20,443 bases of DNA. Origin: a virus. The stretch spans positions 1 to 20,443 of the IMG/VR virus record IMGVR_UViG_3300017752_000232. One strand, given 5' to 3'. Position 1 is the first letter of the stretch. Every line of letters starts with the position of its first letter. The translations under genes and the position numbers were made by a program. Shown piece after piece: positions 6,475-18,217 of this stretch. Under the pieces are notes generated by a model. That model saw nothing but the letters and a program-made list of their open reading frames with translations. It was not told the origin of the DNA and ran no database searches.

Positions 6475-7048
6475 AGTGCTTACCATAAATCCTTTCAATT
6501 TTTTCTCTACTATACGAGTCTGTTTCCTTTTGTTTTTTACCTGGTTTTTTTATATGTACTTTTAAGTGTTTAATAAAAGTTTTTCCAGAATCAGTTTTCC
6601 AAGGAGATTCTTCTATCTGATCAACGTATTTTATTACCATTCTTGGTAGTTGCTTTGCAGTCATTTGTGCTATTTTTTGAGCAGGCTGTATGATTACAGG
6701 ATCATTATTTTTATTTTCTAAATTAATCCAAATTTCATTTCTAAACGTGTATGGAAAGTAAGTTACTCTTTCCGCCATCACTACACAGTGATTATATATC
6801 AAACCACTTAAACCATTTACTTCTAGTACGAAGTTAGGATTTATGAGTTGCGGATAAATTCCTGTTGGAAACGGAAATATTTCTTCAGGCTCTAAAGTAA
6901 CAGGTTCTTTTATACAAGCCCTAAGATGGTAATAAGGTTCTTTATGATTGTAAACATCAAAAGACCAACTTATTCCAAGTTCTTTTTCAAGCTCTCTAGC
7001 GATTGTGCTCTTTTCAATGTGAATCTCACAAACTTGTAAGTTTTTCAA
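6464..7048 (-). CDS. Divergent dUTPase-like protein
   Basis: 194 aa from TTG 7048, picked because GGAGAGG (7061-7055) lies six bases upstream; GTG 7090 or ATG 7084 would overlap the exonuclease gene more. The core follows the trimeric dUTPase order: PTGIYPQ (61-67), GLSGLIYNH (79-87), FRNEIWINLENK (102-113) and IIQPAQKIAQ (119-128). The usual catalytic Asp of motif 3 (x-[IV]-D-x-D-Y-R-G-E) is not seen; the matching stretch reads YFPYTFRNE. It has extra N- and C-terminal parts and no Gly-rich motif 5. It may be a diverged dUTPase/dCTP-deaminase fold protein, possibly inactive or with another role. The place directly before thyX fits dUMP supply. Confidence 0.6.
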   Translation of the reverse strand: MKNLQVCEIHIEKSTIARELEKELGISWSFDVYNHKEPYYHLRACIKEPVTLEPEEIFPFPTGIYPQLINPNFVLEVNGLSGLIYNHCVVMAERVTYFPYTFRNEIWINLENKNNDPVIIQPAQKIAQMTAKQLPRMVIKYVDQIEESPWKTDSGKTFIKHLKVHIKKPGKKQKETDSYSREKIERIYGKHYEG

Positions 7049-7868
7049 TTGGTTCCTCTCCACACTTTCCAGCCACAATCGCATCAACACAGTACTTTTT
7101 AAGATTAATTAGTTTTTCATTACGTATCAACTGATCGTGTCCAGCATTAAGGTTTTGAATATATTTAGACCTACCTTTAATAGGAAGAGCCTCTAAAAGA
7201 GAGTCTAGAGTTTTGTATTCACGTGCTAAAGCTTGAGCACGTTTAGGACCAATTCCCTCAATGCCCAAAATATTATCAGATTTATCTCCTTCAATAATTC
7301 TAGACAACATATATTCAGAGGGAGTTACTTCAAAATCTTCTGCCATGGTTTGTAGAGTGACTTCTTTTCTTCCAAAAATATTAAAAATAGAAATATTATC
7401 ATCTACTAATTGGTATAAGTCTCTATCTGATGATACAACCCAGGTATGATCATAACGATCAGAAACATTTTGAGTAATCCAAGCTAGTACATCATCTGCT
7501 TCTACACCTCTGAACTTTAGTACTTCTTCATCTAACTCTTCAGGTAAGCTATTTAGCACTGCAAAGAAATCTTCATATTTTTTGATCTCTTCTTCTTCTT
7601 GCGGTTTTTTACGAGTTCCTTTATATTCTTCATGCATATTCATTCTATAATATGATTTACCGAAATCAAAACATACTATAGTGCGTGCTGCCTCATATGA
7701 TTTAGCTAAAGATTGAATTGTGCGAATGAAGTCTGCTCCGAATGAAGCATAGTTAGGTCTTTGAAGCCATCTATACGATAAGTTATTGGCATCTATAATT
7801 AACAGATTATTATAAGTCGAATAGTCTGGCTCTTGCAAGTCTGCAAGGTCATTCCAAGATTTGGTCAT
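7026..7868 (-). CDS. 5'-3' exonuclease / flap endonuclease (T4 RNase H type)
   Basis: 280 aa. Its role is to remove RNA primers and 5' flaps in lagging-strand synthesis. The metal-binding acidic residues of the FEN/PIN family are in order: D26 (LLIIDANN), D68 (VCFDFGKSYYR), E123/D125/D126 (GVEADD), D148/D150 (SSDRDLYQLV) and D195/D198 (EGDKSDNI). They are followed by the helix-hairpin-helix LGIEGIGPKRA (201-211), which binds duplex DNA. Length and layout fit T4 rnh-type enzymes and bacterial Pol I 5' nuclease domains. The ribosome binding site AGGAGA precedes ATG 7868. It overlaps the dUTPase-like gene. Confidence 0.9.
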   Translation of the reverse strand: MTKSWNDLADLQEPDYSTYNNLLIIDANNLSYRWLQRPNYASFGADFIRTIQSLAKSYEAARTIVCFDFGKSYYRMNMHEEYKGTRKKPQEEEEIKKYEDFFAVLNSLPEELDEEVLKFRGVEADDVLAWITQNVSDRYDHTWVVSSDRDLYQLVDDNISIFNIFGRKEVTLQTMAEDFEVTPSEYMLSRIIEGDKSDNILGIEGIGPKRAQALAREYKTLDSLLEALPIKGRSKYIQNLNAGHDQLIRNEKLINLKKYCVDAIVAGKCGEEPIEKLTSL

Positions 7869-7904
7869 AGTTATCTCCTGTATTTATAAATAACTATAAC
7901 AATT

Positions 7905-15616: not shown

Positions 15617-16467
15617 TTAAATCTTTCCCAGGTAATAAATGGTTCATACGGAATATGACCATTAAATTCATTTATCTTATCTAAAATCTTAGAAATATAA
15701 GGTTGAGAAAACTCCCAACCAGTAAGTTTTGGTCTTCGTTTTAACTCTTTATATTCACAAAATATAAACTCAGAGTCTTTATTGCCTGCTTTAGTTCTGT
15801 CATAGTTTGCTGCATACCAACAAAAAATAGGCTCTAGAGAGGTAAACGTAAAAAATCTTTTTCTCACATTGATAGCATACTTAACCATGTTTGGAGAGTC
15901 TTCTTGCCAGCCTATTCCTATAGTATCATGAAAGTCTGGATTGTGTCCAGAGAAGATGATAATCTCTTCGGGGTTTACATAGTTGAATAGGTGAGTGAGA
16001 GCCATTTGAGAGTATGAACGAACAAACTGCCCGCATTCTATAGCTTGTTGAATAGTACTTTCTATAAATTCATCGAATGAGAGCTTTATTATTTTGTAAG
16101 GTATGTCACGATCTTTGCACCACTTAACTGCCCAAATAATATCACCCTGATTCATACCATCAAATAGAGATAAAATTAATACTCTAAAACGGATTCCGAG
16201 ATGATAGAAAGTTTCAGCTGTCGCTTCTGAATCAATACCTCCGCTCATGGTAATTACATAATCACCCCTATGATGAAAATGAAATTTGAGAGCAAGAGAA
16301 CTGAGATCATATCTAAATTTAGAGCTTCTATGTTTATATTCTGGTATAGACACCTTTACGTGATCAGTTATAGTACCCCATTCAAAATCTGCAGGTCGCC
16401 ACCAACTACCATTAGAATATTCCCAATAAGTTCTATTACATTCTAAGGTCAAGACTTTTAAACTCAT
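15613..16467 (-). CDS. PP-loop (N-type ATP pyrophosphatase) family protein
   Basis: 284 aa. The PP-loop SGGIDS is at residues 75-80 after the strand YVITM, followed by the Rossmann-like strand RVLILSL and an IIIFSGHNPD motif (about 173-182). This is the HUP/adenine-nucleotide-alpha-hydrolase arrangement seen in asparagine synthetase B, QueC, GuaA and related enzymes, which adenylate a substrate. No glutamine amidotransferase domain is present. The N-terminal 60 residues (NGSWWRPADFEW) are of unknown fold. The exact reaction is unknown. The gene overlaps gp47 by 32 bases and gp46 by four. ATG 16467 lacks a clear ribosome binding site, so translation is probably coupled to gp47. Confidence 0.72.
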   Translation of the reverse strand: MSLKVLTLECNRTYWEYSNGSWWRPADFEWGTITDHVKVSIPEYKHRSSKFRYDLSSLALKFHFHHRGDYVITMSGGIDSEATAETFYHLGIRFRVLILSLFDGMNQGDIIWAVKWCKDRDIPYKIIKLSFDEFIESTIQQAIECGQFVRSYSQMALTHLFNYVNPEEIIIFSGHNPDFHDTIGIGWQEDSPNMVKYAINVRKRFFTFTSLEPIFCWYAANYDRTKAGNKDSEFIFCEYKELKRRPKLTGWEFSQPYISKILDKINEFNGHIPYEPFITWERFK

Positions 16468-17401
16468 CTAAGACTGTGGTTACATCTGCAACTTTAATGT
16501 GGTTGAGATATATTTCTAGCTCTTCATAGATTGTTTTGTTTTTGAGATTAAGTGTTACATCTTCTTGTGGTTTTTCTACTACTTTCTTATCTAACAGCTC
16601 AGAACGGTCAATTTTAGATAGTTGATCAATGTTACCTTTTACCTCATAGATCACATGATGACGATCGTCTGACTTCATCTGATCTCCTGCTTGAATTGTA
16701 CGGCGAACAAGTTTAGGTAGATCTAGATCATAAAACTCACGACTATAGTTTGAAGAATCAATAAAATCATAGATATCTACTCCATATTGTCTTTTTTCAT
16801 CACGATCAAAAGTAGTATTTACCGGAGAACCAGGATAGTAACAGTTAGTGTCATTATAACGATGATTAAAGTGTAGATCGCCAAGTAAACACAAGCCCCA
16901 AGGTGCGAGACGGGAGAAATCATATTCCGGCGTAATATGTGGCGGAACTTCTCCTCGAATGTGTGTAACGAGTATATCACCTGGTACCGGTGTTGGTAGA
17001 TTGTCCGTTTGAACTTCGCCATACGGGAAAAACTGGAACGATACGTCTCGGATAGTCGCACGTCCGTTTCTAGTAAATACCACCACGTTCTCATTCTTGA
17101 TAGCATTTTTCTCAGTAAGATGCTCAAAGAAAGATTCTCCTTTTCTAGTAGCTTCGTGATTGCCGGGGATGATGAATGTAGGAATTGAGACCGAATTGAT
17201 ATAGCTCAAAAACAAAGAGATTTCATCTGGCTCTGGTTTTTTATCAAAGATGTCTCCAGCAATTATATGCACATCCACGCGTTGTTCTAGTGCGATTAAT
17301 TTACGAAACATCTCACGAAATCTAGACGTTTGCCAATCGACTGGGACTTTCTTTTTGTGAAGATTTATATGCCAATCTGCACTACATAAAATTTTTAACA
17401 T
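16436..17401 (-). CDS. gp47/SbcD-like recombination nuclease subunit
   Basis: 321 aa, Mre11-type metallophosphoesterase. Motifs: CSADWH (D9, H11), AGDIFD (D50), PGNHE (N81-H82-E83), VTHIRGE and LLGDLHFNH. Together they bind two metal ions for the nuclease reaction. Partner of the gp46-like protein in end resection. AAGGAA precedes ATG 17401. Upstream lies the 168-bp GC-rich non-coding island rather than a coupled gene, so this gene may have its own control or transcript start. Confidence 0.93.
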   Translation of the reverse strand: MLKILCSADWHINLHKKKVPVDWQTSRFREMFRKLIALEQRVDVHIIAGDIFDKKPEPDEISLFLSYINSVSIPTFIIPGNHEATRKGESFFEHLTEKNAIKNENVVVFTRNGRATIRDVSFQFFPYGEVQTDNLPTPVPGDILVTHIRGEVPPHITPEYDFSRLAPWGLCLLGDLHFNHRYNDTNCYYPGSPVNTTFDRDEKRQYGVDIYDFIDSSNYSREFYDLDLPKLVRRTIQAGDQMKSDDRHHVIYEVKGNIDQLSKIDRSELLDKKVVEKPQEDVTLNLKNKTIYEELEIYLNHIKVADVTTVLDEFKSLDLRM

Positions 17402-17569
17402 TGACGTTCCTTTTCAAGTATGCTAATTTATGTTTGTTAGCTAGTGAACAACGTAACACCGCAGGTGAAGAGCTGTTGAACAAGGTTTGAACCACTGTTT
17501 TCTAGCTTGAGTCTCGGAGAGACGCAGCCGTGGCAACGGAGTTGCCTTAGCGTCACGTCACTCCTGTGT
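17402..17569. ncRNA. GC-rich structured non-coding island, candidate RNA or cis element
   Basis: The largest gene-free gap (168 bp). 68 of 130 bases at 17441-17570 are G or C, against 19 of 60 in the coding stretch just after it (17581-17640). Stems seen: GGCAAC-GGA-GTTGCC (17532-17546, perfect 6 bp), GTCTC-GGA-GAGAC (17511-17523, perfect 5 bp), GGAGAGAC / GTCACTCC (17516-17523 with 17557-17564, one A-A mismatch), GACGC / GCGTC (17521-17525 with 17550-17554), CACC-GCA-GGTG (17457-17467), AGCTAG / CTAGCT (17439-17444 with 17502-17507) and GCTAA / TTAGC (17422-17426 with 17437-17441). Several are mutually exclusive. No tRNA fold, T-tail or credible reading frame was found. The strand is undecided; it could be a small RNA, a 5' leader of gp47, or a DNA element such as an origin. 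Confidence 0.45.
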
Positions 17570-18217
17570 CTAGATTTCAAGGTATTGAAAATCTTGTGTA
17601 TACCACATAGCAAAAGTATATCTCTCACCTTTAGTTACTTTCGTAACACCGTGTACAAAGTCATCATTAGAAGGAAATAGCAAAAGAGTGTTTGCTACGG
17701 GTCTATAGGACCAATCTAGTCTAGGAAAATATATATCTCCACCTTCATATATATCATTGATGTAGTATATACCAGACCAAGTTCTAAACGATGTTGGGTG
17801 ATTAGTTTTATCTCCATCAGGCCAAGAATTGTCGGAGTGTGCTGTCATTTCTCTACCTGTTTCCCAACGAGTTAATTCTGTATTATCAGGAAAATGTAAT
17901 TCCTTAGTATACTCATGGATTAGATGTTGTCCTAAAAATCTACATATATTCATGTAAGATTTGAAGGTAAATCTAACTTGATTCTGAGAATCTAGTAATT
18001 TAAATGGGATAGTTCTTCCTGCAAATTCTTTAATCGTTTGAGACTTCATAAAATATTCATTTTTAAATAAATGTTTATTTGCATCTAAAACTCTACAAAG
18101 AGTAGGCCAGTGGTATTCATCATCAAAAACTTCTTTTCTGATGATGATTTTATTTAGACATTCCTGACGCTTATCCCCAGTAATCGGTTCAAGCTGGTAT
18201 GTTTTAACCTCTTCCAA
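17570..18217 (-). CDS. 2-oxoglutarate/Fe(II) oxygenase, prolyl-4-hydroxylase type
   Basis: 215 aa. The iron ligands H127-x-D129 (AHSDN) and H189 (FVHGV), and R199 (GERYTF) for 2-oxoglutarate, are in place, with the typical GGDIYFP strand (159-165). P4H-like oxygenases are frequent in marine T4-like phages; the target is not known. The start is TTG 18217, seven bases after AGGA (18228-18225); no in-frame ATG exists before residue 57. It overlaps the GT-A gene by 14 bases. The stop codon at 17572-17570 forms part of a short stem (TCTAG/CTAGA) that closes the GC-rich island. Confidence 0.88.
   Translation of the reverse strand: MEEVKTYQLEPITGDKRQECLNKIIIRKEVFDDEYHWPTLCRVLDANKHLFKNEYFMKSQTIKEFAGRTIPFKLLDSQNQVRFTFKSYMNICRFLGQHLIHEYTKELHFPDNTELTRWETGREMTAHSDNSWPDGDKTNHPTSFRTWSGIYYINDIYEGGDIYFPRLDWSYRPVANTLLLFPSNDDFVHGVTKVTKGERYTFAMWYTQDFQYLEI

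Follow-up and report, generated by a model that had tools for sequence, protein, structure and literature searches.

A conserved non-coding element of hairpins and phased repeats in uncultured T5-like marine phages: a candidate site of replication initiation

Introduction

The way in which replication starts in T5-like phages is poorly known. In T5 and in the Vibrio T5-like phages, the gene encoding the origin-binding protein adjoins a large non-coding gap, presumed to be the replication start. T4-type phages carry mobile regulatory cassettes, the PeSLs (promoter-early stem-loop), which are multi-copy and place stem-loops between genes beside variable modules. The early promoters of phage N4 are short perfect intergenic stems with a C(GNA)G loop on the template strand, in which the stem sequence is free and the closing pair and the G..A are fixed; this type of loop lets the hairpins extrude from supercoiled DNA, G-N-A and G-N-N-A being stable DNA loops (PMC4496689). 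At the T4 origin oriE, a cluster of evenly spaced 12-nt direct repeats, whose role is unproven, lies at syntenic positions in close relatives, and RepEB has been implicated (PMC3016281).

We describe here an element of ~150 bp found in a 20,443-nt stretch of viral DNA (IMG/VR record IMGVR_UViG_3300017752_000232, hereafter the window). Its hairpins are like the N4 early promoters in stem, loop, and strand. Unlike these, two to three hairpins are clustered and followed by phased repeats and an AT-rich tract, and the element is antisense to genes in one lineage. Like oriE, it contains short direct repeats clustered at even spacing, but the description of oriE mentions no hairpin pair (PMC3016281), and for our element no candidate initiator gene was identified. 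Like the gap of T5 and its Vibrio relatives, the element is non-coding and accompanies the same replication module, although the element model matches nothing in the T5 or Vibrio genomes. Its placement beside variable genes recalls the PeSL cassettes, from which it differs by its single strong copy per record. A conserved non-coding DNA element that is comparable in length and likewise contains fixed clusters is also reported from different viruses (PMC3989284).

Materials and Methods

IMG/VR was searched with the D12 protein encoded downstream of the gap, yielding 80 loci, 35 of which have the ~150-bp block. Further copies came from two pattern scans using parts of the core, bringing the comparison to ~80 distinct copies; core invariance is partly by construction in the pattern-fetched copies, and the 35 D12-fetched copies are free of such bias. 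For the loop survey, the best palindrome with a 3-nt loop was picked in each zone regardless of its sequence in 51 distinct copies. DNA energy parameters score GNA and TNC triloops as equal, so that energy does not distinguish the strands, and a wobble-based strand test had few mismatches in the stems to score.

Results and Discussion

An earlier note on this sequence had singled out the gap at 17402–17569, between two minus-strand genes, as a GC-rich and highly foldable island and as the place in the window most likely to be something undescribed. The position and all the base counts were exact on recount, with 68 of 130 bases being G or C at 17441–17570, 37 of 60 at 17511–17570, and 19 of 60 in the adjacent coding DNA. 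GC content over 130 bases peaks here: of the 20,314 130-mers in the window, only 4 reach 68 G+C, all four at this place, and just 3 of 20,384 60-mers reach 37. As for foldability, the two perfect triloop hairpins are present as described (Table 1), but the gap as a whole folds no better than dinucleotide shuffles (z = -0.19 on the plus strand and -1.64 on the minus strand). What stands out is each hairpin on its own and the conservation, rather than the overall folding energy. The note had recognised no tRNA or known riboswitch; ARAGORN found no tRNA or tmRNA in the gap, and an Rfam covariance-model search gave no match. A nucleotide search with the gap gave no meaningful match among cultured phages, and none of those in the collection searched carries the element. 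A coding reading, based on an overlapping 63-aa ORF, was rejected because hairpin spacing and loop lengths shift by 1-2 nt among copies and the ORF is not conserved.

Table 1: Features of the element and of its surroundings, in window coordinates.
Feature	Position	Strand	Basis
Conserved non-coding element, whole block (~150 bp)	17417–17569	-	Column conservation over 79 copies drops just beyond these limits
Conserved 5' edge, AGAC.CA....TGACGT	17552–17569	-	Begins right after the upstream stop codon; kept beside unrelated upstream genes
Hairpin A, GGCAAC(TCC)GTTGCC on -, C(GGA)G loop on +	17532–17546		Stem covaries; 47/51 distinct copies have a C(TNC)G loop
Hairpin B, GTCTC(TCC)GAGAC on -, C(GGA)G loop on +	17511–17523		Stem covaries; 49/51 have a C(TNC)G loop
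Repeat 1, degenerate (TTCAAACC)	17484–17491	-	Precedes repeat 2 by 11 nt; conservation poor
Repeat 2 (TTCAACAGC)	17472–17480	-	Precedes repeat 3 by 11 nt in 80/80 copies
Repeat 3 (TTCACCTGC)	17461–17469	-	Overlaps hairpin C
Hairpin C (4 bp), CACC(TGC)GGTG on -, C(GCA)G loop on +	17457–17467		Overlaps repeat 3; compensatory change
Repeat 4 (TTCACTAGC)	17440–17448	-	21 +/- 1 nt after repeat 3 in 79/80 copies
AT-rich stretch ending in conserved TAGCA (AACATAAATTAGCATA)	17419–17434	-	TAGCA 21-23 nt past repeat 4 in most copies
Putative ribosome-binding site of downstream gene (AAGGAA)	17407–17412	-	Sequence; outside the conserved block; variable among copies
Downstream gene, SbcD-like / T5 D12 homologue (gp47 of the earlier note)	16436–17401	-	PHROG phrog_100, Pfam Metallophos, tblastn to Vibrio T5-like D12
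Upstream gene, 2OG-Fe(II) oxygenase-like	17570–18217	-	Other genes take its place in relatives

The proposal that the gap is something undescribed had been tied beforehand to its conservation in relatives, and our comparison uncovered a strongly conserved block with covarying stems. The note was right to rank this gap first in the window for such a feature. The upstream neighbors of the copies include oxygenase-like, radical-SAM-like, and glycosyltransferase-like genes (named mostly by eye), and downstream are found D12 (database-matched) and methyltransferase-, epimerase-, and dCMP-deaminase-like genes (named by eye). As the neighbors differ on both sides, the block is conserved by itself. 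With a sequence-only model, a single strong copy was found in 19 of 25 long records (one of 117 kb) and never two; the long D12-group relatives G021 and G022 had no recognisable copy. A pattern scan of GTDB contigs gave no match in bacterial genomes. The element itself is real, conserved, and structural. Separately, a hypervariable slot between the element and D12 was observed in L001, L003, L005, L008, L013, L016, L021, and other loci, with inserts that by eye are methyltransferase-, epimerase-, and radical-SAM-like.

The T4-like frame of the earlier note, in which the downstream gene was gp47, did not survive the comparison, and the context is T5-like. A relative encodes a DNA polymerase A that shares 41% identity with its counterpart in T5-type phages, and a T5-like (Demerecviridae-type) replication module is present (replicative helicase, primase, PolA, D10-like helicase, .., D12, D13), in a gene order that agrees with Vibrio phage Brizo and T5. 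Judged by these genes, the phages carrying the element are an uncultured T5-like marine lineage. T4-like traits are also present, namely a gp32-like SSB and a TATAAATA late-type promoter. A reading of ACATAAATTAGCATA as a T4 late promoter was rejected, as TATAAATA lies elsewhere. At window position 7888 on the minus strand, a T4-type late-promoter-like TTATAAATACAGGAG stands directly upstream of a 280-aa nuclease-like gene (7026–7868), the replication genes being T5-like. A query with the T5 origin-binding protein, which matches T5, Brizo, and JSF10, had no match in G001 (173 kb), G002 (117 kb), and six more marine records, possibly fragments, so that these phages would need another way to start replication.

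Covariation of the three hairpins was scored over 38 distinct copies. Ten of the 16 pairs are altered on both sides (69 cells), and the score of 0.294, against 0.074 in shuffles, was not attained by any of 500 shuffles, slid controls being much lower. Stem cells were paired in 92.8% of cases, with no one-sided changes and no wobble pairs in these copies. In a subgroup, hairpin C changes from CACC/GGTG to CAAC/GTTG, giving CAAC(TRC)GTTG, and the centers of hairpins A and B are 20-22 nt apart in nearly all copies. While the stems drift, the loops are fixed, the gene-sense strand having C(TNC)G and the plus strand C(GNA)G with few exceptions; among control hairpins with a 3-nt loop elsewhere in the same phages, just 9 of 338 have a loop of this type on either strand. 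Variants with a 4-nt loop read C(GNNA)G on the plus strand, such as C(GTTA)G, and retain the G..A. The hairpins are under selection, and the loop rule would be an evolutionary signature by which functional hairpins of DNA, as opposed to RNA, could be sought in other genomes. The GGA loops on the plus strand suggested a CsrA sponge, an idea given up since the middle base of the loop is variable (GTA, GAA, GCA). Upstream of D12 in L073 (4329–4590), an array of C(TNC)G or similar hairpins, including three CTAAACTTCGTTTAG copies, suggests hairpin duplication.

On the gene-sense (minus) strand, the TGACGT edge is followed by hairpins A and B, a variable spacer, the repeats, and the AT-rich tract ending in TAGCA. 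The direct repeats, TTCA(A/C)..GC, succeed each other at 11, 11, and 21 nt, a helical spacing as in iteron-type origins, which also have an adjoining AT-rich region as found here in the window and in the alignment. Repeats spaced in this way would suit a protein that binds duplex DNA. One candidate for a repeat shared with Vibrio phages, TTCACTAGCT, occurs twice in the origin-binding-protein gap of Brizo (and Ceto) and is absent from pVp-1, KIT04, Wyman, and JSF10; it was set aside as a coincidence.

More divergent copies were also recovered. L038, L056, L073, and G020 have the same plan with other stem sequences. The version seen in G001, and also in five loci related to it, lies within the cluster of structural genes and runs antisense to its neighbors there. 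It has two C(GNA)G hairpins and TTCA repeats spaced by 11 nt, and it stays near-identical while a neighboring protein diverges to ~60% identity. G001 has a second C(GNA)G hairpin pair at 77,963 (L221 17963–18046), upstream of a DNA ligase gene and without TTCA repeats.

The earlier interpretation, which offered an origin, a small RNA, or a leader, is partly supported, the origin being now the best guess and the two RNA roles being disfavored. A structured non-coding RNA, either a trans-acting small RNA or an mRNA leader, would also be marked by strong stem covariation and conserved unpaired sequence, and the main-group element is in transcribed orientation. We know of no stable RNA loop of the U-N-C or U-N-N-C kind. 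This is what the element has on the gene-sense strand, whereas the complement, G-N-A or G-N-N-A, is a stable DNA loop (PMC4496689). RNA stems as divergent as these would usually contain G-U pairs, and none was seen; the RNAalifold consensus retains just two small hairpins, in keeping with the shuffle and Rfam results. Because of the loop chemistry, the absence of wobble pairs, the helical repeat spacing, which fits duplex DNA, and the antisense copy in the G001 lineage, the element likely acts as DNA, and an RNA role appears very improbable. A recombination, nuclease, or packaging site would be made of DNA, its cruciform-prone hairpins being targeted by the SbcCD-like nuclease of the phage (D12/D13) and seeding breaks and recombination-dependent replication. 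D12, which is SbcD-like and annotated as "subunit of palindrome specific endonuclease," is encoded next door and followed by D13, and the highly variable genes between the element and D12 look like a hotspot. Ordinary phage mosaicism can, however, also yield variable genes, the loop and stem rules seem stricter than a hairpin nuclease requires, the phased repeats are left unexplained, and the G001-type element is ~18 kb from D12. A site of this kind seems improbable to us.

A complex transcription start for the downstream recombination/nucleotide operon would make use of both hairpins and repeats, with a unique promoter (TTCAC ... TAGCAT), phased activator sites, and hairpins that form a control region or are recognised directly as in N4. 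In the main group, a co-directional gene lies within a few tens of nucleotides downstream, a distance of 17 nt separates TTCACT from TAGCAT in the window, the upstream gene of L056 ends in a terminator-like hairpin just before the element, and the T5 annotation has many 75-bp promoters between such genes. The element has C-G closed GNA triloop hairpins on the template strand, as N4-type promoters do; the same scan of the N4 genome, used as a positive control, gave few matches, among them template-strand hairpins at 102, 573, and 4562, immediately ahead of early genes. Yet an N4-type virion RNA polymerase was not found in the eight records searched (possibly fragments), although the N4 control matched. 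The TTCACT–TAGCAT spacing is variable (~13-17), unlike that of sigma-70 promoters, the motif pair does not recur as a promoter elsewhere (121 element matches vs 7 scattered), and the G001-type copy has no apparent same-strand gene to drive. Among the rival readings a transcription start is the leading one, but we find it unlikely as the explanation of the element; in the main group, a promoter role may coexist with a replication role.

A site where phage DNA replication starts is, from the sequence comparisons, our best single guess, tentatively held, because the repeats, AT-rich tract, and hairpins are combined in an element that is near-single-copy and independent of its neighbors and, between lineages, of orientation, in phages where the T5 origin factor was not found. 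A phage or host protein would bind the three to four TTCA(A/C)..GC repeats, which, being separated by roughly one, one, and two turns of the helix, would all present the same face of it. Together with negative supercoiling, the bound protein could open the neighboring AT-rich stretch, while the two strong hairpins and the weaker third would extrude, with compact C(GNA)G loops securing their plus-strand arms. The extruded structure might then be recognised by the replication machinery (primase/helicase, SSB). Against a replication start count the promoter-like placement of the main-group element just upstream of a co-directional gene, the second G001 hairpin pair lacking repeats, and the missing copy in G021 and G022; no GC-skew switch was seen at the element, the skew tracking gene direction. 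If replication does start here, such a compact, conserved, single-site DNA element would be a concrete candidate for how T5-like phages begin replication. It is a more doubtful proposition that the element represents an undescribed class of phage site for starting replication, where C(GNA)G hairpins extruded by supercoiling, with free stems and fixed loops, act with phased repeats, the hairpin-recognition trick of N4 being used in an unrelated lineage without the T5-type origin-binding protein. In the Vibrio T5-like phages, the gap next to the origin-binding protein gene measures 0.7-1.1 kb (L272-L274 = MK895508.1 56489–57200; L278-L282) and contains conserved stretches such as CTCCCATGTT; it is possibly the origin of those phages.
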